IMG/VR virus record: IMGVR_UViG_3300002835_009731 | Span: 1 to 30,682 of that record | DNA length: 30,682 nucleotides | From: a virus | Direction: 5' to 3' (one strand) | Shown: piece after piece, positions 16,031 through 29,856 of the stretch | Layout: every line of letters starts with the position of its first letter | Numbering within the stretch: the first letter of the stretch is position 1 | Made by a program: the position numbers and the translations under genes | Notes under the pieces: model-generated | Database searches by the model: none | Seen by the model: the letters and a program-made list of their open reading frames with translations, nothing else | Told to the model about the DNA's origin: nothing

Positions 16031-16031
16031 G

Positions 16032-16526
16032 TTAAGTTTTCCTTCCAGTTGTGTACATTTCATGAACTCGCTTAAGAATGCTACTAACAGCCAAGAATCC
16101 GTTGTATTTATTTCCACAGAAAATAACCTGTACGTTGTTATATAGTGCGAATTCGAACAAGCATTTCATCATATACTTGCCCGTGATTTTGACTGATGCT
16201 TTGTTTTTTAATGGTATCCTAGTTTCTTCTGGGAATTTTGCCAATTCTTCAAAGGTAAATTCTAGAACTAGAAACTTGTGAGGGAATGGCTTCATGCGCT
16301 CTATTTCGTCTAGGAAAGCGTACTTCTTTTGACCCAGATTTGTAGCCAATTCTTCTACGCAGCCCTTGCGCTCTATACATATTTTGTCTTCTAATCCCTC
16401 TATAGAGTAGTCGCCGGTATCAAGCTTACGCTCAATCATCCCACCACAAGTATTATAGTCTTTAAAGTAATATCCGTCTTGTTCGCGGGTATCTTTGATG
16501 ACCATAAATTTTTTAGTTTCACTCAT
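16032..16526 (-). CDS. ERCC4-type (XPF/Mus81) nuclease
   Basis: 164 aa. The compact ERCC4 nuclease domain covers nearly the whole protein: VIKDTREQDGYYF (first Asp), LDTGDYSIEG, and the catalytic ERK of KICIERKGCVEEL, followed by YAFLDEIERM and VLEFTFEELAKF. There is no helix-hairpin-helix tail, so it is smaller than cellular XPF. Known relatives cleave branched or flap DNA; a role in trimming replication or recombination intermediates before packaging is plausible. The start overlaps the HNH gene stop as ATGA. Confidence 0.88.
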   Translation of the reverse strand: MSETKKFMVIKDTREQDGYYFKDYNTCGGMIERKLDTGDYSIEGLEDKICIERKGCVEELATNLGQKKYAFLDEIERMKPFPHKFLVLEFTFEELAKFPEETRIPLKNKASVKITGKYMMKCLFEFALYNNVQVIFCGNKYNGFLAVSSILKRVHEMYTTGRKT

Positions 16527-18695: not shown

Positions 18696-19481
18696 TTATT
18701 CCTGTACAGTGTCTGGGGTTAAAAACGGCTGATCAACCAGCCCGTCCTCATACTTATGGAACGCGCTTAAGCGTTCCTTCTCTTTTAACATAGCCATCTT
18801 CATCTTCTCCATCTCAATCCCGTACTGCTTCATAGTCTCTGGGTCTTGCATCATATTAGCCACCCACGAAATGAAACTCTGCTTGCTATCTTCTAGTCTC
18901 TTAATTCGCTGTTCGCGCGTACCCTTCATCTCGCGCAACATACTAGCTTTCTTAGTTTGAAGCTCACGGTAGTCCCTGTTTAGACTTTCTTGTGAAGCCC
19001 GTAAGGAAGCTATCTGTCTTTCTAAGTTAATAATATAATCTAGGTCTTGATCGTCTTTATCTTTAGACCGCTCATCTTTAACCATAGTTTCATAGGTGGA
19101 AATCTGTTGAATATTATCTTTATTTCCCTTTAGACACCTGTTCATCAAAAGTTCCAATTTGATAACGTCTATAACTTGCAACTCTTCTGTTGGGAAAACG
19201 TCATCTTTAAACTGGGCGATAATGCGGCTCCAGTGATATTTAAATAGTTCCAACTCATCATTTGTGAATTGGCTTTGCAATTCTATCCAGTACGGGCGAT
19301 CTTCAAGAGAGAAAGCAGCTTCTTCTTCCAGTGAAAGTCCGTGCTTAAGCTTCCTCTTCATGAACTGTTCGACAGAATCAACGTCCCGGTCTAGAGATTT
19401 AGCTATATCTTCTAAAGTCATAGACTCGGCATTGCGAGATATAAATCTCTCTTCTTCTTTTGAAATTCGCCCCTTACGCAT
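18696..19481 (-). CDS. HTH/coiled-coil protein, possible small terminase
   Basis: 261 aa, not firmly recognised. Residues about 8-45 look like a helix-turn-helix (LEDIAKSLDRDVDSVEQF). The middle is a long charged coiled coil (about 130-200, IINLERQIASLRASQESLNR), and the C-terminus is again helical (KMKMAMLKEKERLSAF). A DNA-binding N-terminus plus coiled coil is the usual build of terminase small subunits, and no other candidate lies in this packaging operon, but the gene is 3 kb upstream of terL. It is equally possible that it is a transcription partner of the sigma factor it overlaps. Confidence 0.55.
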   Translation of the reverse strand: MRKGRISKEEERFISRNAESMTLEDIAKSLDRDVDSVEQFMKRKLKHGLSLEEEAAFSLEDRPYWIELQSQFTNDELELFKYHWSRIIAQFKDDVFPTEELQVIDVIKLELLMNRCLKGNKDNIQQISTYETMVKDERSKDKDDQDLDYIINLERQIASLRASQESLNRDYRELQTKKASMLREMKGTREQRIKRLEDSKQSFISWVANMMQDPETMKQYGIEMEKMKMAMLKEKERLSAFHKYEDGLVDQPFLTPDTVQE

Positions 19482-19968
19482 TTCCGTGGTCTTTCATTAT
19501 ATTCTTGATAAGTGAGATAATTTCCGCTTTACGTTTCTTTGGTACATAAACATCACTGAGGATCTTTAAATAGTCTGAGCGGCATTTTGACGGGAGGTGT
19601 TGGTCAATAACTTTACTCATGTGGGAGACATCTATATTAATATCTACATCATCGTCTTCAGTCTCAAGACAGTCATCATAAGATAATTGTGAGGGGTTTA
19701 AGATCTTTTTCTTTTCGGTATCATTCTTAGTAAAATAGTTGTCGCGGACGAAATTCTTGAGTCGATTAGATAGATTGACTGATAGGAAGTTTTCAAGGGG
19801 GCGGGCTTCGTCATAGCGATCAAGGGCGTCCATGCATATAATATAAGCTTCTTGCTTTATATCATCAACGTCATAACCATTGAAGGTATACTTGGGAGCA
19901 ATACGGTCTACTACTAATAATATCTTTTGCATTACTTCTTTTTCTGACATATTTTTTGGTATCTTCAT
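19474..19968 (-). CDS. Late sigma factor, T4 gp55-like
   Basis: 164 aa from ATG at 19968, which overlaps the upstream stop as ATGA. Residues about 25-85 read as sigma70 region 2: YTFNGYDVDDIKQEAYIICM, ALDRYDEARPLENFLSVNL, RLKNFVRDNYF. The FNGYxxxxxKQE and YDE elements closely recall T4 gp55 (FNFSGY, WKQEM, FDE). No region 4 is seen, matching the short gp55 type that needs a sliding-clamp coactivator in T4. The C-terminal basic helix (VPKKRKAEIISLIKNIMKD) could contact polymerase. Likely directs host RNA polymerase to late promoters. Confidence 0.85.
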   Translation of the reverse strand: MKIPKNMSEKEVMQKILLVVDRIAPKYTFNGYDVDDIKQEAYIICMDALDRYDEARPLENFLSVNLSNRLKNFVRDNYFTKNDTEKKKILNPSQLSYDDCLETEDDDVDINIDVSHMSKVIDQHLPSKCRSDYLKILSDVYVPKKRKAEIISLIKNIMKDHGNA

Positions 19969-20738
19969 TCGTCTTCGAATCTCCATAATAGTGTTCGCCA
20001 ACGAGATCCGTCGAAGTATTGAATAGTGTCGTGTTCTTCATTGTAAATGATGCTGCCTTTTTTTATTTGCGCTGGTTTACTTGGGGTCAACTGTAATATT
20101 TTGGTTTTTAACTTCTTAACGTCTAGTTGAGAGCAGGATAAGATAATTTGTTTAGTGCAGTCAAGTAGCAGATTGGTGGCTTTGGTGCATATATCTGAAA
20201 TAGAAAGTGAGGTAACATTACCATCAAGTCTTCCAATAAGGGAGTTTTCATCTACATTGACGATATTGACGGGGTTATCTGGAATAGAAACTATTAATGA
20301 GTGGGGGTCAACTAATAATTCTGGAAGAGAGTGGGCGTGATAAGAGTGAACAACTAAGTAATCGTCAGGATCGTGACATCCAAAAGCATTAACTGGTCTT
20401 ACAACGGGGCCAATCTGCTCGTCACCGTGCTTATATAGCAAGGGCTGAGATCGTTTAAGAAGAATAATATTGGGGGCTTCTTGAAAGAGATGGCCTATAC
20501 CTATCTCTAGGTCAATTAGCTTGCGCTTATTATACTTTTCAAGCCTGTAGTAAAACTTGTGATCTAATCCAAAAGCGACTAGAAAACTGTTATTAGAAGA
20601 ACAGGGGGGATTTTTTTGATAACGAAGCTCTGGAAAATATTCACATACCTGTTCAGTACCAGATAGAAATATATCGCAGGAGTTTTCTGTGGGCAATCCA
20701 CGTTCAAGAATCTGTATGGGGCTTGTCTTTAACTTCAT
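19965..20738 (-). CDS. Hypothetical protein, possible virion component
   Basis: 257 aa from ATG at 20738 (GAGG shortly upstream; an in-frame TTG at 20747 is the alternative). Not recognised. The body is beta-rich without enzyme motifs. The last 35 residues (KKGSIIYNEEHDTIQYFDGS, then RWRTLLW) match the Y-N-x-x-x-x-x-x-Q/K-Y-F/Y-D-G-S-x-W pattern common at ends of phage fibre proteins. It opens the late operon after a short acidic ORF, and its stop overlaps the sigma factor start. Confidence 0.65.
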   Translation of the reverse strand: MKLKTSPIQILERGLPTENSCDIFLSGTEQVCEYFPELRYQKNPPCSSNNSFLVAFGLDHKFYYRLEKYNKRKLIDLEIGIGHLFQEAPNIILLKRSQPLLYKHGDEQIGPVVRPVNAFGCHDPDDYLVVHSYHAHSLPELLVDPHSLIVSIPDNPVNIVNVDENSLIGRLDGNVTSLSISDICTKATNLLLDCTKQIILSCSQLDVKKLKTKILQLTPSKPAQIKKGSIIYNEEHDTIQYFDGSRWRTLLWRFEDE

Positions 20739-20959: not shown

Positions 20960-20992
20960 GACGTAACTCTAAAAACAAGAAGGGACTCTCAT
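20960..20992 (+). repeat. Possible degenerate single 33-bp unit at the divergent region
   Basis: GACGTAACTC at 20960-20969 is identical to the left arm of units at 23702 and 24568; the right arm (GGGACTCTCAT) is poorly conserved. It lies between the diverging subtilase and late operons. It could be a decayed relative of the six modules or a chance match. Confidence 0.3.
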
Positions 20993-22196
20993 GTTACATT
21001 TTGAACAATTAAATTCTAGACAAATGTTGAGTTTGAATACGTGGGGTTTAGAGCAAATTAATCTACATTTAGCTCATACTATAACAAGAGGATCGCCAGA
21101 TATCGTAGTAGCAATTATTGATAGTGGAATGAATACTAAGTTGGGTAATGTGTGGGTAAATAAAGGCGAGATTGCAAACAACGGGATTGACGATGAGGGG
21201 AACGGATATATAGATGATATAAATGGATGGAATTTTGCAAATAATACAAACGACCCTACAGATAAATATGGGCATGGAACGCATGTTGCTGGCATCGTGG
21301 CTCAAGTTGCTCCAACAATATCTATAATGCCACTAAAGTTTCTAGATGATAGAGGAGTGGGAAATACTGGTGGGGCAATACAAGCTATTAAATACGTTAA
21401 CATGATGAAAGAAAAGTATAATGTGAATATTGTCGCTGTAAATGCTAGCTGGGGTGGTGGTACAGGATTTTCAAATATGCTATATCAAGAAGTAGAAAAT
21501 CTTAATAAGAATGAGATTATGTTTGTTGCTGCGGCTGGTAACTCTGCTAGGAACACTGATTTAACTCCATCATATCCTTCATGTTTTCCGTCTAATAACG
21601 TAGTGAGCGTGGGTGCTTTGGGCTACTACAGTAAGAACAATCTAGTGGGGTTTTCTAATTATGGAAAGAATAGTGTGGACTTGGCATCTCCGGGTAGTGT
21701 GATATATAGTACATTACCAAATAATAGATATGGATATTTAAGCGGAACAAGTATGGCTGCACCATTCGTAACTGGCACAATTGGACTCATGAAGAGTGCA
21801 AATCACAGTATGACGATAAGTGAGATCAAGATGGATCTGTTAAGTAGCGTGAATTTGTTACCATCCTTAACAGATAAAGTAGTGTCGGGCGGGGTTTTAG
21901 ATGCTAATAATGCTGTGAGGTTATCAATAGATTTAGATAAAATTGATTATATTTCCATACCGGCAGAGCCAAGTGTAGTTAAAGCGACATTAACCAAAGT
22001 GTTTGGAGTAATTAAGCAGCCGTATCCTGCTGATATTTCTGTTGTGATCAACGGGCGGGAAGCTAAAACGTTTACAACTATTGGGCAGTTCAGTGAACCG
22101 TTAAGAAGGAGTATGTTTCGTAGGGGTTGGAACAATGTTGAAATATACGAGAATGGGGTACTGTTGAGTCGTATGCGAGTTAGAAGGATCGTGTGA
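20991..22196 (+). CDS. Subtilisin-like serine protease (S8) with LEPR-XLL-like N-terminus
   Basis: 401 aa, ATG after AGAAGGGA. Full S8 domain (about 30-300): Asp44 in VVAIIDSGMN, His95 in YGHGTHVAGI, oxyanion Asn184 in AAAGNSA, Ser254 in LSGTSMAAPF. All catalytic residues are present. The first residues FEQLNSRQMLSLNTWGLEQIN resemble the LEPR-XLL leader of planctomycete extracytoplasmic proteins, and TWGLEQIN is a usual start of S8 domains. No hydrophobic signal peptide is visible. The C-terminal about 85 residues form a small beta domain. It stands alone between divergent operons, like a moron gene probably acquired from the host. Possible roles: lysis, surface-layer degradation or exclusion; unproven. 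Confidence 0.93.
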   Translation: MLHFEQLNSRQMLSLNTWGLEQINLHLAHTITRGSPDIVVAIIDSGMNTKLGNVWVNKGEIANNGIDDEGNGYIDDINGWNFANNTNDPTDKYGHGTHVAGIVAQVAPTISIMPLKFLDDRGVGNTGGAIQAIKYVNMMKEKYNVNIVAVNASWGGGTGFSNMLYQEVENLNKNEIMFVAAAGNSARNTDLTPSYPSCFPSNNVVSVGALGYYSKNNLVGFSNYGKNSVDLASPGSVIYSTLPNNRYGYLSGTSMAAPFVTGTIGLMKSANHSMTISEIKMDLLSSVNLLPSLTDKVVSGGVLDANNAVRLSIDLDKIDYISIPAEPSVVKATLTKVFGVIKQPYPADISVVINGREAKTFTTIGQFSEPLRRSMFRRGWNNVEIYENGVLLSRMRVRRIV

Positions 22197-22305: not shown

Positions 22306-22391
22306 ACCGTAAGTCCTTACGTACCAAGGACTTAGAGCATACATAGTGGGCCAAAATCGCCGTAAGTCCAATGATATCAACCACTTACATC
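22306..22391 (+). repeat. Bipartite palindrome module, copy 1
   Basis: Units 22306-22338 and 22359-22391, 20-bp spacer. Unit a has a perfect 9-bp inverted repeat TAAGTCCTT/AAGGACTTA with a 7-nt loop. Unit b keeps GTAAGT/ACTTAC. The spacer here is the least G-rich of the six (GTGGGCC). Followed by a promoter at 22429. Confidence 0.9.
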
Positions 22392-22428
22392 AAAAGAAAA
22401 TAATTTTGGAAAAATCTGAAGATTTCCC

Positions 22429-22456
22429 TTGACAACGCCGATATATACTGTATAAT
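22429..22456 (+). promoter_or_regulatory. Early promoter 1 (module 1)
   Basis: TTGACA, 16 bases containing CCGATA, TATAAT. Just upstream lies AAATCTGAAGATTT, a small inverted repeat also seen in part before other early promoters. Confidence 0.9.
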
Positions 22457-22493
22457 GGTAGTAGAAGAGAACGATAGAGAAAAGGATAGAAAA

Positions 22494-22697
22494 ATGGAAA
22501 AGGTTCAAAGCGTCAACGGTTTCATCAGCAGTCTCCCCAAGATTCGCAAGCGTCGAATCTGGAAGGTGATCATTAACGGTACGGTTGTTCAGGGCGTTTC
22601 CGCTTCTGACAATCGCAAAGAGACTGCACAAGCGTACATCGCTAGCAAGTATCCGGGTCAAGCTTTCACCCTGAAATTTTCTCACTGGAAAATCTAA
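22494..22697 (+). CDS. Small early protein, hypothetical
   Basis: 67 aa. I use ATG at 22494 (AAAAGGA upstream) because an earlier in-frame ATG at 22455 overlaps the -10 box and could not be in the transcript. Basic protein (SLPKIRKRRIWKVIINGTVV) with an alternating beta pattern; a nucleic-acid-binding role is possible but unproven. First gene of its block. Confidence 0.75.
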   Translation: MEKVQSVNGFISSLPKIRKRRIWKVIINGTVVQGVSASDNRKETAQAYIASKYPGQAFTLKFSHWKI

Positions 22698-22702
22698 GGT
22701 AC

Positions 22703-22731
22703 TTGACACAGGCCGACCGATACTATATAAT
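22703..22731 (+). promoter_or_regulatory. Early promoter 2
   Basis: TTGACA, 17 bases (CAGGCCGACCGATACTA), TATAAT. It begins 6 bases after the previous stop, so this small gene has its own promoter. CCGATA lies 3 bases before the -10. Confidence 0.9.
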
Positions 22732-22766
22732 AGAGAAACAAGAGAAAAGGAAAAAGGAAAAAGAAA

Positions 22767-22961
22767 ATGGTTACTTACGAAACTTGGCATACGATGAAAT
22801 TTGGCAACACTACTGCAACCTTCAAGGTTTATCGTAGTGGTGCATTTGTTATCCAGACTATCTTGCGTGATGGTAAGGATGTTACGAGTAACCTTCTCAC
22901 TAACCGTAATGTCTCTGGGTTGATTCGATTCAATGTCGCAAATAAAATTATCGACTATTGA
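22767..22961 (+). CDS. Small early protein, hypothetical
   Basis: 64 aa, AAAAAGGAAAAAGAAA leader. Beta-rich small domain (TATFKVYRSGAFVIQTILRD). Not recognised. Its TGA stop is part of the TTGACA -35 box of the next promoter. Confidence 0.72.
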   Translation: MVTYETWHTMKFGNTTATFKVYRSGAFVIQTILRDGKDVTSNLLTNRNVSGLIRFNVANKIIDY

Positions 22962-22986
22962 CAACCCATAGCCCATACTGTATAAT
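22958..22986 (+). promoter_or_regulatory. Early promoter 3
   Basis: TTGACA, 17 bases, TATAAT. The -35 contains the stop codon of the preceding gene. The spacer has CCCATA instead of CCGATA. Confidence 0.88.
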
Positions 22987-23012
22987 ATCAGCACAAGAGA
23001 AAAGGAAACACA

Positions 23013-23162
23013 ATGACCATTCAAGTACAACACACAATTCGCCGCCTTGTCGCTCGTCATGGTTATTCTGCTACATTTGTACAGCACATGGGCGAGGGTA
23101 TTTGTTTGTATAGTGTAGGCGGTATCATGTATCGCATTCGTGGCGATGGTACGATTCTCTAA
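23013..23162 (+). CDS. Small early protein, hypothetical
   Basis: 49 aa with AAAAGGAAACACA before ATG. MTIQVQHTIRRLVARHGYSA then a short beta stretch. Basic; unrecognised. Supported by its own promoter, ribosome site and tight spacing to neighbours. Confidence 0.65.
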   Translation: MTIQVQHTIRRLVARHGYSATFVQHMGEGICLYSVGGIMYRIRGDGTIL

Positions 23163-23179
23163 GAAATAAGGTATATAGA

Positions 23180-23293
23180 ATGATTACGATGATCGAATAT
23201 GTTCAGTTGTTTGCGTTGATTTGTGGTGCAGGCTTTTGTAGCTATACTGCACATGAGGTAGGTAACGCTATTCAATCTATACTGAACGACTAA
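23180..23293 (+). CDS. Small membrane peptide (probable)
   Basis: 37 aa with AAGG upstream. One hydrophobic segment (about residues 8-22, QLFALICGAGFC), likely membrane-inserting. Its initiation region TAAGGTATATAGAATGA is identical to that of the next gene. Confidence 0.5.
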   Translation: MITMIEYVQLFALICGAGFCSYTAHEVGNAIQSILND

Positions 23294-23310
23294 CACACAC
23301 ACACACACAC
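23293..23310 (+). repeat. (AC)9 dinucleotide tract
   Basis: Nine AC units between two small genes, just after the stop. Slippage here would change only the intergenic length. Confidence 0.9.
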
Positions 23311-23323
23311 TAAGGTATATAGA

Positions 23324-23644
23324 ATGACACACTACGAAGCTACTAACATGGTGCATGGTAAGACTAAGCGCACTACTCGCAAGGTAGGTAACAATACATA
23401 TGCGGAGATATTGCCCGATGGTAGCGTAGGCATTATGCTACATGGTACATGCGTTGTACGTATTCATTACGATAACAGTGCAACACTTAATACAGGTGGA
23501 TGGTATACCAGTACCACTAAGGATAGGATTAATCAGTATTCACCTGTACGCGTGTACCAGAAGAAGGGTGAATGGTATCTGAACGATGGTACACCATACG
23601 TAGATGGTATGAATGTTAAGGATGATAAGACATGGATATGGTAG
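23324..23644 (+). CDS. Conserved early phage protein of unknown function
   Basis: 106 aa. Contains TLNTGGWYTSTTKDRINQY, a motif I recognise from small proteins of many phages (GW-T-TTK-RIN), flanked by beta strands (TYAEILPDGSVGIMLHGTCV) and a W-rich C-terminus (GEWYLNDGTPYVDG). Function unknown; family resemblance from memory. Last gene of block 1; module 2 starts 4 bases after its stop. Confidence 0.8.
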   Translation: MTHYEATNMVHGKTKRTTRKVGNNTYAEILPDGSVGIMLHGTCVVRIHYDNSATLNTGGWYTSTTKDRINQYSPVRVYQKKGEWYLNDGTPYVDGMNVKDDKTWIW

Positions 23645-23648
23645 AGTA

Positions 23649-23734
23649 GACGTAAAACCTTGCAGCGTAAGGACTTAGGGCGAGGCGGGCGGCGGTAATT
23701 TGACGTAACTCCTTATGTAGTATAGACTTAGGAT
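23649..23734 (+). repeat. Bipartite palindrome module, copy 2
   Basis: Units 23649-23681 and 23702-23734, spacer GAGGCGGGCGGCGGTAATTT. Starts 4 bases after the preceding stop. The inner stem of unit a is CCTT/AAGG. Confidence 0.9.
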
Positions 23735-23760
23735 GTATTTCCCTATATAACCAGCTAGCG

Positions 23761-23810
23761 CCACGCATGGCACGGGAGTTGCATACAGCAATTACTGTGC
23801 CAATGTGTGG
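23761..23810 (+). other. 50-nt strong hairpin between module 2 and its promoter
   Basis: CCACGCATGGCAC (23761) pairs with GTGCCAATGTGTGG (23797) with one bulge and one mismatch, and an inner stem AGTTGC/GCAATT closes a 5-nt loop. No T run follows on either strand, so it does not look like a terminator. It could be a structured RNA, a replication structure or a protein site. Confidence 0.75.
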
Positions 23811-23866
23811 AAAAATCGGGGGAATTAGTGTCAAATTCTCTTGACAATATTCTTGGAATTTTTCGC

Positions 23867-23894
23867 TTGCAATCTAAAGAATGTGCTGTATAAT
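23867..23894 (+). promoter_or_regulatory. Early promoter 4 (module 2)
   Basis: TTGCAA, 16 bases, TATAAT. A perfect TTGACA at 23841 lies 42 bases from this -10 and cannot serve it. Confidence 0.7.
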
Positions 23895-23925
23895 GTCGAT
23901 ATAAGAAGTAAGAGAGAAAGAGAGA

Positions 23926-24150
23926 ATGAAAATGAGAAAGCCTCCAAAGATTGCAACTGTCAAGGGTAAGATTCAGGCTTATGCCTATAAGTGTGGGTTT
24001 AGCTATCATCCTCAGATGGATGGTACGTTCGCCCTGTTCGATATCCATATGGGATATTACGTTTGTCGCGGTTCGCACGATAGGGTTGTCCAGTTTGTGA
24101 TGGATGACCTTTGGGCGAAGTATTATCGGTCTAATCCAACTAACGTCTAG
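23926..24150 (+). CDS. Small early protein, hypothetical
   Basis: 74 aa, purine-only leader without a true Shine-Dalgarno. The in-frame ATG at 23932 is an alternative start. Basic N-terminus (MKMRKPPKIATVKGKI) then an aromatic-rich domain (GFSYHPQMDGTFALFDIHMG). First gene of block 2. Confidence 0.7.
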   Translation: MKMRKPPKIATVKGKIQAYAYKCGFSYHPQMDGTFALFDIHMGYYVCRGSHDRVVQFVMDDLWAKYYRSNPTNV

Positions 24151-24160
24151 AAAGAAAACT

Positions 24161-24334
24161 ATGAGAATGATTCAATATCCTTTCGTGTGGGTCATGGGTG
24201 CTTTCCTGACTGTAATGGAAACGTTGTGCGAAGTATGGCAGCGTTTTAAGGAATATGATGAGATGAGGGCAAGGGGCTATACTCTCATGAAGAATGATAA
24301 GGGCGATGATTTTTGGGTTGGATACGGCGACTAA
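24161..24334 (+). CDS. Small membrane-associated protein, hypothetical
   Basis: 57 aa from ATG at 24161; a longer in-frame start lies inside the previous gene. Hydrophobic residues about 4-23 (IQYPFVWVMGAFLTVMETLC) could cross the membrane, followed by a charged tail. Confidence 0.6.
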   Translation: MRMIQYPFVWVMGAFLTVMETLCEVWQRFKEYDEMRARGYTLMKNDKGDDFWVGYGD

Positions 24335-24352
24335 AAACAACGAGGTGCAAGG

Positions 24353-24466
24353 ATGTACAGTATAGACTTTGTTAGTGTGACTCTTGGATATGTTGTTGGT
24401 GTGGCATTGTGCTATACCACTATGAAAATGATCTACGAATTGGAAAACCACGACAATGACGAATGA
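24353..24466 (+). CDS. Small membrane peptide (probable)
   Basis: 37 aa with GAGGTGCAAGG upstream. Hydrophobic segment VSVTLGYVVGVALCYTTM, then acidic ELENHDNDE. Single-span membrane peptide, unknown role. Confidence 0.55.
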   Translation: MYSIDFVSVTLGYVVGVALCYTTMKMIYELENHDNDE

Positions 24467-24536
24467 ACAGATGTATAGCTTGTGGGGCTTCTCATTCTTT
24501 CTTGGTTGCCTTGCGACGTATCTCCTTACAGCATAA
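24456..24536 (+). CDS. Possible 26-aa membrane peptide ending inside module 3
   Basis: ATG at 24456 overlaps the previous gene by 11 bases. Hydrophobic throughout (LWGFSFFLGCLATYLL). Its stop lies within the first 33-bp unit of module 3. Without homologues it could be chance. The stretch 24467-24775 otherwise holds module 3, short repeats, a terminator and a promoter. Confidence 0.35.
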   Translation: MTNEQMYSLWGFSFFLGCLATYLLTA

Positions 24537-24600
24537 GGACTTACGACAAGGCGGGCGGGCCAAATTTGACGTAACTCCTTTGCTACCAACGACTTACGAC
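24515..24600 (+). repeat. Bipartite palindrome module, copy 3
   Basis: Units 24515-24547 and 24568-24600, spacer AAGGCGGGCGGGCCAAATTT. Both units end in ACTTACGAC and start with GACGTA. Confidence 0.92.
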
Positions 24601-24605
24601 GAATT

Positions 24606-24646
24606 GCAAAATGCAATGCAAAATGCAAAACGCTGAAGCAAAATGC
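24606..24646 (+). repeat. Three GCAAAATGC direct repeats
   Basis: Exact copies at 24606, 24618 and 24638, right behind module 3. Short iteron-like repeats; possible protein binding sites or a slippage product. Confidence 0.85.
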
Positions 24647-24647
24647 T

Positions 24648-24676
24648 ACACTGCCACTCTGGCATAGTGTGTTTTT
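24648..24676 (+). terminator. Intrinsic terminator of block 2
   Basis: ACACT and GCCA pair with TGGC and AGTGT around a 3-nt loop with a 2-nt bulge, followed by GTTTTTC. It lies between module 3 and the next promoter, so the module itself is probably not the only stop signal here. Confidence 0.75.
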
Positions 24677-24705
24677 CACGGGAAAAATGGCACAAAAATC
24701 TTTTT

Positions 24706-24735
24706 TTGATTGGCACGGAAGATGCACTATATAGA
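24706..24735 (+). promoter_or_regulatory. Early promoter 5 (module 3)
   Basis: TTGATT, then TATATA at 24728 (16-bp spacing) or TATAGA at 24730 (18 bp). Weaker than the others. Confidence 0.6.
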
Positions 24736-24775
24736 GGTAGAAAAAGAAGAAAAAGAAGAAAGAAAGAGAAAGAAA

Positions 24776-24964
24776 ATGAATATCAAGACTTTTACCGAAT
24801 CCCTCAAGCCTATCTACATCTACGATCATCTCGTACACATGAAGAATGGAAAAGCCTATAGGGTTTATCGTTGTGGTAGTGATCGTGCAGTTTACGCATA
24901 CATGCGTTCTCAGGGTTTCGATACCAAAGAAATCGTAAAAATCGATCTGGTTGCAAAAAAATAG
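24776..24964 (+). CDS. Small early protein, hypothetical
   Basis: 62 aa from ATG at 24776; an earlier in-frame start at 24710 overlaps the promoter. The leader is about 40 nearly pure purines (GAAAAAGAAG type). Sequence SLKPIYIYDHLVHMKNGKAY then YRVYRCGSDRAVYAYM; basic end. Function unknown. Confidence 0.7.
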   Translation: MNIKTFTESLKPIYIYDHLVHMKNGKAYRVYRCGSDRAVYAYMRSQGFDTKEIVKIDLVAKK

Positions 24965-24967
24965 GGC

Positions 24968-24995
24968 TTGACAAATAAAAAAAGTGTGGTATAAT
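24968..24995 (+). promoter_or_regulatory. Early promoter 6
   Basis: TTGACA, 16 bases, TATAAT, 3 bases after the previous stop. No CGAT in its A-rich spacer. Confidence 0.88.
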
Positions 24996-25020
24996 GTTAG
25001 AAAGAGAAAGAGAGATAGAG

Positions 25021-25146
25021 ATGATTGATAGAGAAAAGATGATTGCTGAAATTCAAGAAAGTTTCGCCAAGATTGGTGCAAAGCCTCTTAGCGAAAAGAG
25101 ACTCAATGAAATCATTGATGAAGAAATTGCAAGATTCAAGGCTTGA
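25021..25146 (+). CDS. Small helical early protein
   Basis: 41 aa behind a purine-only leader. Predicted almost entirely helical and charged (MIDREKMIAEIQESFAKIGA, KRLNEIIDEEIARF). The TGA stop lies inside the next -35 box. A short promoter-gene-promoter unit, which supports it as real. Confidence 0.65.
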   Translation: MIDREKMIAEIQESFAKIGAKPLSEKRLNEIIDEEIARFKA

Positions 25147-25171
25147 CAACTAAAAGCCGATACTGTATAAT
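25143..25171 (+). promoter_or_regulatory. Early promoter 7
   Basis: TTGACA, 17 bases with CCGATA, TATAAT. The -35 contains the previous stop codon. Confidence 0.9.
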
Positions 25172-25203
25172 AGAAGAACAAGAAAGAAAGAGAAAGAAAG
25201 AAA

Positions 25204-25518
25204 ATGAAAAACAAGTTTCCCATCATTGAAAAAGCAAAGCGTCAAGCTCGTCTGTGTTTCCTTGGAATTGCACTTCCCACCGCTGTCAAGAGCATCGATG
25301 GTGAAATGGTGCAAGTTGAAAAGGTAATCAAGTTCAATCGTACCGCTCTCAAGAATATCGGAAAGCGTAAGACTGAAAGTGTCGATCCGCGATATGTTGG
25401 CGGTGAAGATAAGATGCGTTATAAGGTTGGAAAGCCGGGAAGTGCTGAACGTGTTGAAGCACTGATCGTGCAGTATGCTAGTCTCGCTGAAGATGAAATG
25501 TCACCCTTTGAGGATTGA
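25204..25518 (+). CDS. Basic early protein, hypothetical
   Basis: 104 aa, ATG after a run of GAAA repeats. Lys/Arg-rich (EKAKRQARLC, ALKNIGKRKTES, KMRYKVGKPG), acidic C-terminus. Could bind nucleic acid; not recognised. Coupled to the next gene (ATG 3 bases after the stop). Confidence 0.75.
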   Translation: MKNKFPIIEKAKRQARLCFLGIALPTAVKSIDGEMVQVEKVIKFNRTALKNIGKRKTESVDPRYVGGEDKMRYKVGKPGSAERVEALIVQYASLAEDEMSPFED

Positions 25519-25520
25519 AA

Positions 25521-25706
25521 ATGGACACACTAACATTCAAAGAAATTGTAAAGATGGCCCGTGAGAATGATTTGCATATTCTTATTAAGTCTGAAGGATA
25601 TGCTTTGTGTGATGAAAACTTGGAAACGCTAGTGATAACTAGCAGCCTGCGTAAGATGGCGTGGTATATTAACAACTGTGACGTTCTTGGAATTGTGAAG
25701 GTATGA
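25521..25706 (+). CDS. Small early protein, hypothetical
   Basis: 61 aa from ATG at 25521 with GAGGATTGAAA upstream. Alpha/beta small domain (TFKEIVKMARENDLHILIKS, GYALCDENLETLVI). Its stop overlaps the next ATG as ATGA. Unknown function. Confidence 0.72.
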   Translation: MDTLTFKEIVKMARENDLHILIKSEGYALCDENLETLVITSSLRKMAWYINNCDVLGIVKV

Positions 25707-25957
25707 GTATGTATAACGGCTATGCAAATTATCAAACGTGGAATGTTTGCTTGTGGATTAGTAACGATGAAATGTTGTATGGTCTAGCACAACGTTGTGA
25801 GTCTTATGAGCGTTTCAAGATTTTCCTGCGTGAAGTTTTCGAACATCATCCCGTTAGATTCGAAACGCCCGATGGTGTGGCATGGAATGATAGCGGAATA
25901 GAACTGGCAGAAGTAGAAAAATATTGGGAAGAAAGTTTTTCTCAAGTTGAAGCTTGA
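25703..25957 (+). CDS. Conserved YNGYANYQTWNV-type phage protein
   Basis: 84 aa. The N-terminus MYNGYANYQTWNVCLWISND is the hallmark of a small, widespread phage and plasmid family of unknown function (DUF7249-like by memory). The C-terminal part has TPDGVAWNDSGIELAEVEKY, also typical. ATGA overlap at the start; TGA stop within the next -35. Confidence 0.85.
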   Translation: MSMYNGYANYQTWNVCLWISNDEMLYGLAQRCESYERFKIFLREVFEHHPVRFETPDGVAWNDSGIELAEVEKYWEESFSQVEA

Positions 25958-25982
25958 CAACTGCCGATAAGTATAGTAGACT
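25954..25982 (+). promoter_or_regulatory. Early promoter 8
   Basis: TTGACA, 17 bases with GCCGATA, TAGACT. The -35 contains the previous stop. Same CGAT position as in promoters 1, 9, 10, 11 and 12. Confidence 0.75.
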
Positions 25983-26022
25983 AGCGTAAGTGTTTTTCAA
26001 TTAGCAAAAGAGGTGTTTTAGT

Positions 26023-26412
26023 ATGAGTGATTTTCTGATGATTTGTTTGGTTGCTGCGGTTGTGTTCTGTCTGACTTTTTATTGTGTGTATCGTGGAGTG
26101 TACGGTTCGCTGTCTTCTGCGAATCTTGGTGAAGTTTATAACTTCCATTATCTCCAGCCTCTCACGGGAGAGTATGAGCGTTATCTTGCCAAGGTAATCT
26201 CTAAGCGTGATATGAAAGAGCAGATTGGTTATCTGAACGCTACGAGTAACTATCGTAGACATGATAGCCAGTTTGAGCGTAGTAACACGCTTGTCACTTG
26301 CGAATTGTCAAACGGTGAAATTCGTAACTTTTACGCTGAACGTGTGAGAGATTGCTACCGTTCGATTTTCGGTAGACTTTTGTACAGTACGGGCATGGCC
26401 TGCATGTTCTAA
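26023..26412 (+). CDS. Membrane-anchored early protein, hypothetical
   Basis: 129 aa with a weak ribosome site (AAAGAGG upstream). Residues about 4-25 form one strong transmembrane helix (FLMICLVAAVVFCLTFYCVY). The rest is a soluble alpha/beta domain: YNFHYLQPLTGEYERYLAKV, SNYRRHDSQFERSNTLVTCE, GEIRNFYAERVRDCYR. The soluble part feels like a family seen in other genomes, but I cannot name it. N-out or N-in topology is undecided. Last gene of block 3. Confidence 0.75.
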   Translation: MSDFLMICLVAAVVFCLTFYCVYRGVYGSLSSANLGEVYNFHYLQPLTGEYERYLAKVISKRDMKEQIGYLNATSNYRRHDSQFERSNTLVTCELSNGEIRNFYAERVRDCYRSIFGRLLYSTGMACMF

Positions 26413-26426
26413 AAAACGCGACACTC

Positions 26427-26512
26427 GCTCTAAGTCTATATCCCACAAGGACTTAGGGCGAATCGCCGCCGCCCCGCGAAGCGTAAGTCCTTTGCTGGCA
26501 TACACTTACGTC
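26427..26512 (+). repeat. Bipartite palindrome module, copy 4
   Basis: Units 26427-26459 and 26480-26512. Unit a pairs over 11 bp (CGCTCTAAGTC with GACTTAGGGCG, one T/G). Here the usual G/C pair next to TAAGTC is changed to C/G on both sides. The spacer is C-rich (CGCCGCCGCCCCGC), the reverse of the G-rich spacers. Confidence 0.9.
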
Positions 26513-26569
26513 AAGTCATGACGCAAAAGCTGTGCCAAAAATATTTTGAAAATTCTCTGAAGATTTTGC

Positions 26570-26598
26570 TTGACACGGGCCGATATATAGTATATACT
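26570..26598 (+). promoter_or_regulatory. Early promoter 9 (module 4)
   Basis: TTGACA, 17 bases with GCCGATA, TATACT. Upstream CTGAAGATTTT resembles the sequence before promoter 1. Confidence 0.85.
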
Positions 26599-26622
26599 TG
26601 AGAGAAGAAAGAAGAGTGAAAG

Positions 26623-26826
26623 ATGAGATTGCTGAATAAGACTGAAATTGCTGATCTGGAATTTGATGCTGATCTGATGGGGTTTCGGGTGGTTTATATT
26701 GCAAAGCCTCTTGACGAAAACCATTTCGTACTGTACCATAAAGAACCCGTGTTGAAGCATGTCGGACACTACAGGAATCTGCGTGATCTTCATTTGGCTA
26801 TGCAAGCGAATTACGTAACCAAATAA
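26623..26826 (+). CDS. Small early protein, hypothetical
   Basis: 67 aa, purine-rich leader. LLNKTEIADLEFDADLMGF, VVYIAKPLDENHFVLYHK, GHYRNLRDLHLAMQANY: alpha/beta, unrecognised. Confidence 0.7.
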   Translation: MRLLNKTEIADLEFDADLMGFRVVYIAKPLDENHFVLYHKEPVLKHVGHYRNLRDLHLAMQANYVTK

Positions 26827-26843
26827 ATTTTTAAAGTTGCCCC

Positions 26844-26872
26844 TTGACAGTTGACGATCTAAGGTATAGAAT
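26844..26872 (+). promoter_or_regulatory. Early promoter 10
   Basis: TTGACA, 17 bases with GACGATC, TAGAAT (or TATAGA with 15-bp spacing). Confidence 0.75.
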
Positions 26873-26896
26873 CAATCACACAAGGAGAAAGAAACC

Positions 26897-27070
26897 ATGC
26901 GATACGATTTTGATGATGTCAACGCGATTCTCTCCGCTCTTGCCGATGCGGATATTGTGGAGCCGATGGTCGAGCCGATTGACGATCCCAGCGTGGAAGT
27001 CAACTTCTGGGATTGGGCCGATGTTGTGGGTGCTGTTGACGATTTTGTTCCAGAGGAGTATACTGTGTAA
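26897..27070 (+). CDS. Hyperacidic small protein
   Basis: 57 aa from ATG at 26897 (ACAAGGAG upstream); a different-frame long ORF over this region is spurious. 16 Asp/Glu, one Arg, no Lys (MRYDFDDVNAILSALADADI, NFWDWADVVGAVDDFVPEEY). Helical with strong negative charge, as in DNA-mimic proteins; this is an inference from composition only. Followed at once by two further small genes. Confidence 0.75.
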   Translation: MRYDFDDVNAILSALADADIVEPMVEPIDDPSVEVNFWDWADVVGAVDDFVPEEYTV

Positions 27071-27071
27071 T

Positions 27072-27131
27072 ATGGCGTTCATTCTACTGTGCGTTTTCTT
27101 TCTTTACCTTTCCTGCATTGTTGAGGACTAA
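27072..27131 (+). CDS. Possible 19-aa membrane peptide
   Basis: ATG one base after the previous stop. MAFILLCVFFLYLSCIVED: a single hydrophobic helix with acidic end. Tight spacing and GAGG for the next gene inside it support expression, but the length makes chance possible. Confidence 0.45.
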   Translation: MAFILLCVFFLYLSCIVED

Positions 27132-27135
27132 TAAC

Positions 27136-27372
27136 ATGAGCCACCCTGACCCGTTGTTTGATGCCGATAACTCTTACGAGGATGATGACATGGAAATCCA
27201 TGATGATACCGCTGATGCTCTCTATGACGATTACCACGATTACCATGATGATAGCATGGATGGCGACCACGATTCCGCGATGACTTCCTGCGGATGGGGA
27301 ACGGATGAGGATTACGGTCATTATGGTGATGACATTGAATCTTTCCGCGATTACTATGGAGATGATTTCTGA
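27136..27372 (+). CDS. Extremely acidic Asp-rich protein
   Basis: 78 aa from ATG at 27136 (GAGG upstream). 24 Asp and 4 Glu against one Arg and no Lys; also many Tyr and His (ADALYDDYHDYHDDSMDGDH). Net charge near -27. Such proteins can imitate DNA phosphates (Ocr-like anti-restriction proteins) or bind metal ions; His-Asp pairs make metal binding a real alternative. Stop overlaps the next start (TGATG). Confidence 0.8.
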   Translation: MSHPDPLFDADNSYEDDDMEIHDDTADALYDDYHDYHDDSMDGDHDSAMTSCGWGTDEDYGHYGDDIESFRDYYGDDF

Positions 27373-27599
27373 TGAAACTTGGATATCAAAAGTTTGTAGA
27401 GTTTGATAACGGTTATTCCGCGAGCATTGTATCTAACGATATGAGCTACGGTAGTGATCGTGGACTATTTGAGATTGCTATCCTACACAATAGCGATATT
27501 GTATACGACACGGGTATTACAAACGATGTGATCGGATTTCTTGATTTTCAAGGGGTAGCAGACACACTCAAACAAATTGAAAACCTTCCGCGACGTTAG
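27372..27599 (+). CDS. Conserved small phage protein
   Basis: 75 aa. FDNGYSASIVSNDMSYGSDR, GLFEIAILH, YDTGITNDVIGFLDFQGVAD and a Leu-Pro ending follow a pattern seen in many phage early proteins of unknown function (NGYxxSVV..SYG...GLxExAVL...ITxDVIG). The last base of its stop is the first base of module 5. Confidence 0.8.
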   Translation: MKLGYQKFVEFDNGYSASIVSNDMSYGSDRGLFEIAILHNSDIVYDTGITNDVIGFLDFQGVADTLKQIENLPRR

Positions 27600-27684
27600 A
27601 CGTAAACCCTTGTGGCATAAGGACTTACGACGCGGCGGGCGGGGAAAATTTGTCATAAGTCCTTTACTACCATATACTTACGAC
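27599..27684 (+). repeat. Bipartite palindrome module, copy 5
   Basis: Units 27599-27631 and 27652-27684, spacer GCGGCGGGCGGGGAAAATTT. The promoter follows 23 bases later, the shortest distance of the six. Confidence 0.92.
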
Positions 27685-27707
27685 GAGTTTTTACCTAAAG
27701 AAAGTGC

Positions 27708-27736
27708 TTGACAGGTGACGATAACTATGGTAGACT
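27708..27736 (+). promoter_or_regulatory. Early promoter 11 (module 5)
   Basis: TTGACA, 17 bases with TGACGATA, TAGACT. Confidence 0.78.
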
Positions 27737-27755
27737 ACCTAGGGAGGACTGAGAG

Positions 27756-27899
27756 ATGAGTGAATATGTAGAAGATAGGGAATATATACAACCTGAGCAA
27801 GAGACGATAGATTGGCTAGTCTACGCAGAATACATAAGCTGCGAACTTAGGAAGATTAGGCAAGATGCGGGGAATGAGGTAGATGGGATGTCTGCATAA
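27756..27899 (+). CDS. Small early protein, hypothetical
   Basis: 47 aa with GGGAGGACTGAG upstream. Helical, charged (QPEQETIDWLVYAEYISCEL, RKIRQDAGNEVDG). No recognisable family. Confidence 0.65.
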   Translation: MSEYVEDREYIQPEQETIDWLVYAEYISCELRKIRQDAGNEVDGMSA

Positions 27900-27987
27900 G
27901 ATAGGTAAGATGGATAAATTGGGGTGAGTCTTTGCCTATCTAAGCGGGTCATGTGTTTTTCGCCATAGTCAGCTAAAAGGAGATTTT

Positions 27988-28149
27988 ATGAAGAACGTGC
28001 ATGTTTATGATATTAAGTCTGAAGATGGTCAATCATTGATGGATTTGATTATCCCCGTGGATATTGGATATGAGTGGATGGATGTGTTTGAGAAGGTTCA
28101 GGGAGCATATCTTGACAACGTAGACAGCTATAGCTATACTGAAGTGTAG
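27988..28149 (+). CDS. Small acidic early protein, hypothetical
   Basis: 53 aa with AAAAGGAG upstream. VHVYDIKSEDGQSLMDLIIP, DIGYEWMDVFEKVQGAYLDN. Acidic alpha/beta peptide, unknown. It lies directly before tRNA-Lys and may be co-transcribed with it. Confidence 0.68.
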   Translation: MKNVHVYDIKSEDGQSLMDLIIPVDIGYEWMDVFEKVQGAYLDNVDSYSYTEV

Positions 28150-28156
28150 CTTGATC

Positions 28157-28230
28157 GGGTCATTAGCTCAGTTGGTCAGAGCAAGGGTCTTTTAAACCTT
28201 TGGTCGTAGGTTCGAATCCTACATGACCCA
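28157..28230 (+). tRNA. tRNA-Lys (UUU)
   Basis: Cloverleaf: acceptor GGGTCAT/ATGACCC, D arm AGCTCAGTTGGTCAGAGC, anticodon stem AGGGT/ACCTT with loop CTTTTAA, T arm GTAGG TTCGAAT CCTAC. CCA not encoded. Confidence 0.97.
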
Positions 28231-28259
28231 TTGAAATTGTTAAGGATTGTGAGTATAAT
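28231..28259 (+). promoter_or_regulatory. Promoter after tRNA-Lys
   Basis: TTGAAA, 17 bases, TATAAT, starting directly after the tRNA. No CGAT motif. Confidence 0.7.
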
Positions 28260-28303
28260 ATGAGGATGCGGCGTATTCACAAATATCAACTAAGGAGTAA
28301 ATT

Positions 28304-28558
28304 ATGTCATGGCGAGATGAATTCTTCTTCTATAAAGGATATAATTGTAGGATTGAACATGAATATGAAGAAGATAATGTCAAGGCTTGGCATATCGTGG
28401 TTGATAAAGATGGTAAACAAATAACTGCCGATATAACTCCATATGATAGTTCTACTGAAACTCTACGTTTGTGGATTGACGCTGGTATGCCTAGTCGCAT
28501 TAACAACGGACCACTTCATAGAGAAGAATTGGAGAAGATGATCTATGAGCGAGCCTAA
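28304..28558 (+). CDS. Small early protein, hypothetical
   Basis: 84 aa, AAGGAGTAAATT before ATG. FFFYKGYNCRIEHEYEEDNV, AWHIVVDKDGKQITADITPY, LRLWIDAGMPSRINNGPLHR. Compact alpha/beta domain, unrecognised. Overlaps the next ATG by 14 bases. Confidence 0.75.
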   Translation: MSWRDEFFFYKGYNCRIEHEYEEDNVKAWHIVVDKDGKQITADITPYDSSTETLRLWIDAGMPSRINNGPLHREELEKMIYERA

Positions 28559-28688
28559 TGTCTATTATATCTATAACGAATACGTGTTGGGCGACGTAGA
28601 TTATTATGAGGATATCTATGAAGAAATCGTAGAGTATGATGACTCTAACGAATGGTACAATATTGATGAAGCGGAGGCTGATGTTTGA
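28545..28688 (+). CDS. Hyperacidic small protein without basic residues
   Basis: 47 aa. 16 Asp/Glu and no Lys, Arg or His; nine Tyr (DVDYYEDIYEEIVEYDDSNE). Overlaps the previous gene, so likely translationally coupled. It resembles in composition the two acidic proteins at 26897 and 27136. Confidence 0.7.
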   Translation: MSEPNVYYIYNEYVLGDVDYYEDIYEEIVEYDDSNEWYNIDEAEADV

Positions 28689-28699
28689 GTTGCGATGGT

Positions 28700-28772
28700 G
28701 CCGATGTAGCTCAGTTGGTAGAGCGTTAGTTTTGTAAACTAAATGTCGCCGGATCGTTCCCGGCCATCGGCT
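28700..28772 (+). tRNA. tRNA-Thr (UGU), unusual T loop
   Basis: Acceptor GCCGATG/CATCGGC, anticodon stem TTAGT/ACTAA with loop TTTGTAA, T stem GCCGG/CCGGC. The T loop is ATCGTTC: A at 54 and T at 58 replace the normal T54-A58 pair. Confidence 0.92.
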
Positions 28773-28773
28773 C

Positions 28774-28844
28774 TCCGGGATGGTGAAACGGTATCACAAA
28801 GGATTTTGGTTCCTTTTTTCTACGTTCGAATCGTAGTCCCGGAA
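28774..28844 (+). tRNA. tRNA-Gln (UUG)
   Basis: Acceptor TCCGGGA/TCCCGGA (T1-A72 as usual for Gln), anticodon stem AAGGA/TCCTT with loop TTTTGGT, T arm TACG TTCGAAT CGTA. Lies 1 base after tRNA-Thr. Confidence 0.95.
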
Positions 28845-28865
28845 CTAAACACAAAGGAGGTTGAT

Positions 28866-29294
28866 ATGCTTGGTGATAATGCGGTTTATCTTGCTAAAGA
28901 AATTGAAAAACTGAATATGTATGAAGAAAGTTGCAATAGAGATGATTTTATTGCTATCATGCGTAACAATAAAGTGTTGATAACCTCTTTTTATCATGCC
29001 GTTGGTGATATGTGCGAAATGATGTTTCGCTTTGAAGCTGGTAATGATCGTGGAAACAATATGTATGGCCTTAAGGGGAAGTTTGATGAAATCTCATTTC
29101 TAGCTCACAATCTGTATTTATGTGCTAATGATGATGGTGGAATGGTGGATATATATCCAAAAAACTTCGCTAAGATAGCTGATGATCTGGAGGATATGTC
29201 TATTCGATTGAATTATGAGATTCACAACAACATGACAGTGATTAATAATTCTAGGAATAAAGAATATAGCAAGATGGAACGGGTGATGTGTTGA
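28866..29294 (+). CDS. Hypothetical protein between tRNA clusters
   Basis: 142 aa from ATG at 28866 with AAAGGAGG upstream; a longer in-frame start lies inside a tRNA. Mostly helical (NAVYLAKEIEKLNMYEESCN, FYHAVGDMCEMMFRFEAGND, FAKIADDLEDMSIRLNYEIH). Not recognised. Embedded between tRNA genes of one transcript. Confidence 0.75.
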   Translation: MLGDNAVYLAKEIEKLNMYEESCNRDDFIAIMRNNKVLITSFYHAVGDMCEMMFRFEAGNDRGNNMYGLKGKFDEISFLAHNLYLCANDDGGMVDIYPKNFAKIADDLEDMSIRLNYEIHNNMTVINNSRNKEYSKMERVMC

Positions 29295-29300
29295 TTTGAT

Positions 29301-29372
29301 TGTCCGATAGCTCAACGGTAGAGTAGGCGGCTGTTAACCGCTTGGTTCTAGGTTCGAATCCTAGTCGGACAG
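29301..29372 (+). tRNA. tRNA-Asn (GUU)
   Basis: Acceptor TGTCCGA/TCGGACA, discriminator G, anticodon stem GGCGG/CCGCT with loop CTGTTAA, T arm CTAGG TTCGAAT CCTAG. Confidence 0.95.
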
Positions 29373-29375
29373 CTT

Positions 29376-29460
29376 GGAAGAATGGCAGAGTGGTCTAATG
29401 CACCGGTTTACTAAACCGGCGACTCTAACGGGTCCGTGGGTTCGAATCCTACTTCTTCCG
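29376..29460 (+). tRNA. tRNA-Ser with rare ACU anticodon
   Basis: Class II tRNA: acceptor GGAAGAA/TTCTTCC, discriminator G, long variable arm GACTC/GGGTC, T arm GTGGG TTCGAAT CCTAC. Anticodon stem CCGGT/ACCGG with 7-nt loop TTACTAA gives anticodon ACT where bacterial tRNA-Ser normally has GCT. Confidence 0.93.
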
Positions 29461-29463
29461 TGC

Positions 29464-29536
29464 GGCCCTATCGTCTAGTGGACTAGGACACTACCCTTTC
29501 ACGGTAGATACTGGAGTTCGAATCTCCATAGGGTCA
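29464..29536 (+). tRNA. tRNA-Glu (UUC)
   Basis: Acceptor GGCCCTA/TAGGGTC (one G-T), anticodon stem CTACC/GGTAG with loop CTTTCAC, T arm GGAG TTCGAAT CTCC. Close to the bacterial consensus. Confidence 0.96.
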
Positions 29537-29538
29537 CT

Positions 29539-29611
29539 GTGGCTATAGCTCAATTGGTAGAGCAACAGGTTGTGATCCTGTAGGTTGTGGGTTCAAGTCT
29601 CACTAGCCACC
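29539..29611 (+). tRNA. tRNA-His (GUG), no encoded G-1
   Basis: Acceptor GTGGCTA/TAGCCAC, discriminator C, anticodon stem ACAGG/CCTGT with loop TTGTGAT. The base before position 1 is T, not the G usually encoded at -1 in bacteria. Confidence 0.95.
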
Positions 29612-29615
29612 TATT

Positions 29616-29689
29616 GGGAGCGTAGATCAATTGGTTAGATCGCCAGCCTGTCACGCTGGAGGTTGCGGGTTCAAGTCCCGTCGCTCTCG
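29616..29689 (+). tRNA. tRNA-Asp (GUC)
   Basis: Acceptor GGGAGCG/CGCTCTC, anticodon stem CCAGC/GCTGG with loop CTGTCAC, T arm GCGGG TTCAAGT CCCGT. D arm is TAGATCAATTGGTTAGATC. Last gene of block 5; module 6 starts 6 bases later. Confidence 0.95.
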
Positions 29690-29695
29690 TTATTT

Positions 29696-29781
29696 GATGT
29701 AAGTCGTTATCTATCAAGTGTTTAGGACTAGCGGGGCGGGCCGCGTTTTTCATAAGTCCTTATCTACCAACACCTTACGAC
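29696..29781 (+). repeat. Bipartite palindrome module, copy 6
   Basis: Units 29696-29728 and 29749-29781, spacer TAGCGGGGCGGGCCGCGTTT. Here the module follows a tRNA gene rather than a coding sequence. Confidence 0.9.
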
Positions 29782-29828: not shown

Positions 29829-29856
29829 TTGACGTTGACGATCTATATGGTATGAT
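29829..29856 (+). promoter_or_regulatory. Early promoter 12 (module 6)
   Basis: TTGACG, 16 bases with TGACGATC, TATGAT. Preceded by GATTTTCTAAAGATTTCTC, similar to the region before promoters 1 and 9. Confidence 0.7.

Follow-up and report, generated by a model that had tools for sequence, protein, structure and literature searches.

A viral DNA stretch of 30,682 nucleotides (IMG/VR record IMGVR_UViG_3300002835_009731, positions 1 to 30,682; the whole of it is here called the window) carries six copies of an 86-base pair (bp) element, each composed of two imperfect 33-bp palindromes separated by a 20-bp linker. The same paired element recurs throughout a clade of uncultivated phages, where it is oriented towards sigma70-like promoters and stands in helical phase with them. 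It is probably a tandem composite operator for a dimeric protein acting on RNA polymerase, through which one regulator would control a whole module of small genes.

Anatomy of the element

The six elements all read on the plus strand and are located at 22306-22391, 23649-23734, 24515-24600, 26427-26512, 27599-27684 and 29696-29781 (elements 1 to 6). Their palindromes occupy positions 22306-22338 and 22359-22391, 23649-23681 and 23702-23734, 24515-24547 and 24568-24600, 26427-26459 and 26480-26512, 27599-27631 and 27652-27684, and 29696-29728 and 29749-29781, respectively. An earlier note on this DNA had reported six copies at these places with palindrome starts 53 bp apart; both were confirmed and lie far above chance. 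A symmetric 33-bp weight matrix, trained on the window's own 12 palindromes, retrieved only the 12 element sites in the window, with scores of 26-38, while mononucleotide-shuffled windows gave a mean of 0.75 matches above the cut of 8, far below the scores of real sites. Since the matrix was trained on these very sites, the independent evidence is recurrence in other contigs.

The palindromes had initially been described with an 11-bp centre. Their palindromic nature stood, and the arms are better described as 13 bp long (GnCGTAAGTCCTT / AAGGACTTACGnC), flanking a centre of 7 bp. In the linker, T-rich sequence comes after a G+C-rich box. In an alignment of 279 oriented elements, the left half displayed GACGTAAACCCTTG...YAAGGACTTASGGC and the right half GACGTAAGTCCTTA...CAACGACTTACGAC, with the G+C-rich box at about positions 38-47 and the T-rich stretch at 51-53. 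Near-invariant TAA/TTA cores were encountered at positions 6, 28, 59 and 81, all four on one helical face.

Three elements closely follow genes: element 2 starts 4 bp past the stop codon of open reading frame (ORF) 23324-23644, element 5 directly adjoins the stop codon of ORF 27372-27599, and element 6 lies 5 bp past a tRNA-Asp gene. A 26-amino acid (aa) ORF at 24456-24536 has its stop codon within element 3, in the left palindrome.

Recurrence and spacing in relatives

In a viral collection, relatives were sought by three scans with exact patterns of one palindrome or half-palindrome and by one search with the terminase; bacterial genomes were covered by one pattern scan. Together with the window, this gave 242 loci (2.34 Mb); the contigs of relatives are metagenomic and some are related to one another. 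This set displayed 1035 sites in 176 loci. Neighbouring sites were spaced by 53 bp in 306 pairs, by 52 bp in 41 and by 42 bp in 22, other distances being few. As the searches were made with patterns of one palindrome or with the terminase, and spacing was no criterion, this recurrence is an unbiased confirmation of the spacing, whose conservation in relatives the earlier note had named as support.

Among the 66 loci with at least three close pairs, the modal spacing accounted for 93 % of pairs; the mode was 53 bp in 53 loci, 52 bp in seven and 42 bp in two. Spacing varies by lineage. The geometry, first called invariant, is so within the window genome, whereas across relatives 53 bp is the mode and spacings of 52, 54, 42 and 41 bp are lineage-specific. 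The 42-bp pairs belong to a sister clade and are shorter by one helical turn; their TAA/TTA cores fall at positions 6, 28, 48 and 70, again sharing one face. This one-turn step from 53 to 42 bp and the placing of the four cores on one face support the earlier proposal of a protein bound to two sites on the same side of the DNA.

A distant sister of the window's terminase (28-31 % identity) is encoded by the two 42-bp loci (L112 and L133) and likewise by L115 (41 bp) and L099. In most contigs with spacings of 52-54 bp, the terminase belongs to the window's own family (51-92 % identity). This family or its sister was present in 36 of the 40 element-bearing contigs tested. Seven contigs with isolated palindromes only (L005, L006, L008, L009, L010, L030 and L038) all lacked both the family and its sister. 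One of them, the 38.8-kb viral contig L010, displayed eight near-perfect palindromes with the same core at 4299-4875, irregularly spaced.

Distribution in phages and bacteria

The phage clade is represented by contigs of up to 238 kb. Nine relatives read end to end (24-238 kb) displayed essentially one cluster each, of 11-39 sites and up to about 18 pairs, located beside the block of structural genes, in a module whose genes are very small. In the 238-kb contig, all 32 sites were confined to 112.7-130.7 kb. The terminase, its neighbour in portal position, an ERCC4-type nuclease and a sigma70 region 2 protein were common to all ten genomes compared. At least 598 stretches of the viral collection encode a related terminase, and among cultured phages the best terminase matches, of about 26-29 % identity, came from Bacillus phages. 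When element 5 was used with its flanks as a DNA query, only short spurious matches were returned.

A planctomycete host, as guessed earlier, could not be confirmed: none of 246 genomes from the phylum of a Planctomycetaceae metagenome-assembled genome (MAG) contained a relative of the terminase. The palindrome core, taken as the exact near-consensus core only, was rare in bacteria, with 11 stretches in a GTDB scan and three of 199 genomes in the sampled phylum; in the loci examined, none of these matches was paired at 53 bp. Four Treponema MAGs (L018, L019, L020 and L022) and the Planctomycetaceae MAG (L013) displayed isolated perfect palindromes directly 3' of tRNA genes. These share the core, CGTAAGTCCTT-n7-AAGGACTTACG or close to it, are unpaired, and may represent an unrelated mobile or terminator-like element.

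Orientation and helical phasing to promoters

Elements were preferentially located between genes, 49 % of element pairs having less than 20 % overlap with ORFs as compared to 14 % of random positions. Their orientation was set from the element alone, without reference to promoters; gene direction, taken from a greedy ORF caller, was uninformative and was left unused. A good sigma70-like promoter was found in the 200 bp downstream of 86 % of the 211 confidently oriented elements, versus 44 %, 33 %, 31 % and 30 % in controls (other orientations, other side, shuffles).

Distances from the element end to the -10 box clustered at 39-40, 50, 60-61 and 71-72 bp. For 236 promoters the best period was about 11 bp (Rayleigh p about 1e-21). 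Thinning, in which elements of more than 70 % identity were removed, left 97, with p about 3e-8 at 10.5 bp and a best period of 11.0 bp. Several steps of this ladder were encountered within single contigs, for instance at 50, 60 and 71 bp in L141.

Four window elements are followed by such promoters, all on the plus strand. Element 1 precedes TTGACA-16-TATAAT at 22429-22456 (-35 starting at 22429, -10 beginning 60 bp past the element and ending at 22456) and element 4 precedes TTGACA-17-TATACT at 26570-26598 (-10 at 81 bp), both with CCGATA in the spacer. The promoter of element 5 is TTGACA-17-TAGACT at 27708-27736 (-10 at 47 bp; ACGATA in the spacer) and that of element 6 is TTGACG-16-TATGAT at 29829-29856 (-10 at 70 bp; ACGAT in the spacer). 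The good promoter nearest to element 2 lies at 23867-23894, with its -10 at 155 bp, and no strong promoter was found within 150 bp of element 3. A CGAT-containing spacer was displayed by 180 of 237 promoters. As GCCGATA or ACGATA spacers also occur at window promoters devoid of an element (22703, 25143 and 25954) and at many other module promoters, this motif belongs to the promoter and not to the element. The promoters were near consensus, with A+T-rich sequence upstream of the -35 box.

The elements are repeated, sequence-specific sites oriented to the promoters of one gene module. Their general kind is already known, that of the phage operator array, of which they are a variant without an Rfam match (at gathering threshold, Rfam recognised only tRNAs) and without a motif found in the literature. 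Among the papers listed, motif strings were retrieved only in unrelated work, topic searches gave nothing matching, and the element was not described in passages from candidate papers on aquatic phages. The regulatory role proposed in the earlier note is supported by these results.

DNA site versus RNA element

A fixed two-hairpin RNA had also been suggested, and such a structure in the upstream gene's transcript could serve for termination, antitermination or processing. The inverted repeats are foldable, and two hairpins were predicted in two of the six window copies; the other copies folded differently. In 147 thinned elements, arm pairing hardly departed from that of partner-shuffled arms (0.715 vs 0.706 on the left, 0.692 vs 0.707 on the right), and neither arm covariation nor compensatory stem changes were found. 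The strongest statistical dependence in these elements linked neighbouring bases inside a half-site, as would be expected for protein recognition. No terminator-like site (G+C-rich hairpin followed by a T run) was located inside any element, and L133 displays a separate G+C-rich hairpin, then a T-containing tail, beside its element. An RNA would moreover leave the phasing to the downstream promoter unexplained. The RNA hairpin model was rejected for its lack of covariation and inconsistent folds, and the intrinsic terminator for want of terminator-like sites within elements; we consider an RNA element most improbable.

Proposed mode of action and alternatives

Each 33-bp palindrome could hold a protein dimer, and the two palindromes of an element, five helical turns apart (four in the sister clade) with the G+C-rich box between them, would hold the bound protein to a single face of the helix, ahead of a sigma70-like promoter. 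From there it would act on RNA polymerase, directly or via DNA bending. Such one-face action would make element-promoter distances tolerable mainly in whole helical turns. As the operators would precede the transcription units of the small-gene module, a single regulator, phage- or host-encoded, could set the module as a whole. If the element is such an operator, activation is slightly favoured, being somewhat the better bet, while repression is possible and less probable; near-consensus promoters would fit a boosted as well as a repressed promoter. We tentatively extend this to the entire clade, in which a regulator might sit on the four- or five-turn palindrome pair, wrap or bend the DNA and control the module by a helix-phased contact with polymerase, the geometry evolving in whole-turn steps.

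Several observations weigh against this operator model. Two of the six window copies (2 and 3) lack a strong promoter with a -10 within 150 bp, copy 5, at 47 bp, is about 3 bp off the phase peak, and about 14 % of all elements have no recognisable promoter in the 200 bp downstream. Near-consensus promoters may need no activator, and the phasing reveals an interaction whose sign may be of either direction. Thinning takes out close relatives and leaves some shared ancestry. In two relatives, several elements retained the G+C box and right half while the left palindrome was not recognisable; two of the outcomes named beforehand as refuting, variable spacing and loss of one half, were thus each partly encountered, as spacing differs from lineage to lineage and some elements do without the left half. 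Finally, family searches of the scanned module and neighbouring proteins, in genomes only partly annotated, yielded no better regulator candidate than those described below.

An array of repressor or stoperator sites, where a phage protein bound to the pairs would silence the module by looping onto the promoter or by blocking read-through from the unit upstream (early shut-off, superinfection immunity or lysogeny), is rather unlikely, though it comes closest among the alternatives and overlaps with the repression branch of the favoured model. Many oriented intergenic copies in one module, together with near-consensus promoters, resemble repressor-controlled early regions, and looping is also phase-dependent. 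However, the sites overlap neither the -35 nor the -10 box, a roadblock alone would not account for phasing to a downstream promoter, and no repressor or integrase was recognised among the scanned proteins of these partly annotated genomes. It seems improbable that phages borrowed the binding site of a nucleoid or growth-rate factor of the host, one that boosts strong promoters as Fis does from its sites at rRNA promoters. Promoters that are near consensus and have an A+T-rich stretch ahead of the -35 box would suit such a factor, and early promoters require one that is present at infection, but in scans restricted to the near-consensus core, this core was rare in bacteria and, in the loci examined, was never paired at 53 bp.

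Paired inverted-repeat subsites in helical register are also a common feature of serine-resolvase recombination sites of the res type. A site of this type is highly unlikely here: the copies are directly repeated (8-20 per genome), lie upstream of promoters and are phased to them, single right halves persist, and no recombinase was recognised among the proteins scanned, the genomes being only partly annotated. For the replication and recombination roles listed in the earlier note, no positive evidence emerged.

As an operator, the element would identify the small-gene module's regulon in a phage clade that is abundant and uncultivated, and of which almost every gene is unnamed. It would provide a sequence handle with which the module can be located, its transcription units predicted and the regulator fished out. 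Selection for helical phase, both inside the operator and in its distance to the promoter, is apparent from comparative data alone, which is rarely so clear without experiments.

Relation to known systems

The closest working analogy, without claim of membership, is the regulator p4 of Bacillus phage phi29 (PMC3100819). At its promoters this dimer recognises imperfect inverted repeats of the form CTTTTT-15 bp-AAAATG, present as two per region; it bends the DNA there and exerts its effect on RNA polymerase. Both systems share paired imperfect inverted repeats at promoters. They differ in number, four sites in one switch region of phi29 against 8-20 pairs across the module here, and in sequence, the p4 repeat being absent and replaced by the consensus GnCGTAAGTCCTT-7-AAGGACTTACGnC. 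No relative of p4 was recognised among the proteins scanned.

In the genome of mycobacteriophage L5, stoperators likewise occur as numerous oriented copies within short gaps; they are short, asymmetric, single sites acting on elongation, in contrast to the paired 33-bp palindromes phased to promoters found here. At Escherichia coli rrn P1, Fis sites and the UP element stand upstream of a near-consensus promoter in helical phase, as do the present elements, but Fis sites are degenerate and do not form fixed pairs, and evidence for a host factor did not emerge here. In Tn3/gamma-delta resolvase res, the inverted-repeat subsites I and II are also about five turns apart; there is one such recombination locus per element, whereas the copies described here are many, promoter-linked and accompanied by no recognised recombinase.

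Candidate regulators

The sigma70 region 2 protein found in all ten genomes is a core gene product of 175 aa, encoded on the minus strand at 19474-20001 (Pfam Sigma70_r2, E = 1.5e-6; PHROG sigma factor, 1.2e-6). By inference only, it may be a regulatory partner. The adjoining gene (18696-19481, minus strand) encodes a candidate DNA-binding protein with an N-terminal helix-turn-helix-like region and a long coiled coil. Residues 4-50 matched a PHROG D5-like regulator (6.4e-7), and the AlphaFold model had a predicted local distance difference test score (pLDDT) of 81. Searches with the protein gave no significant fold or sequence match, HK97 small terminase being among the weak fold matches, and its profile matched that of a neighbour in the 42-bp clade only weakly (12 % probability). 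It is a weak candidate regulator and may just as well represent the small subunit of a terminase. For the module protein of widest occurrence (25204-25518), the structural model was of low confidence (pLDDT 67) and no family was matched.

Other features of the window and its relatives

Eight tRNA genes are clustered at 28157-29690, the last of which, tRNA-Asp, directly precedes element 6. The window also encodes a Subtilase-family protease (20991-22196) and a Clp-protease-like protein (15392-16117), both phage genes, and starts with a GTA triplet repeat (1-45) within the open-ended ORF 3-986. In two relatives (the contig of L062, at L292:151-3243, and that of L134), the large-terminase ORF is interrupted in frame by about 340 extra aa, located at the Walker A motif. 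The boundaries of this insert (GFGK | ALSPDTPV ... VTHN | S) and an internal LLGDGC are typical of an intein with a homing endonuclease.

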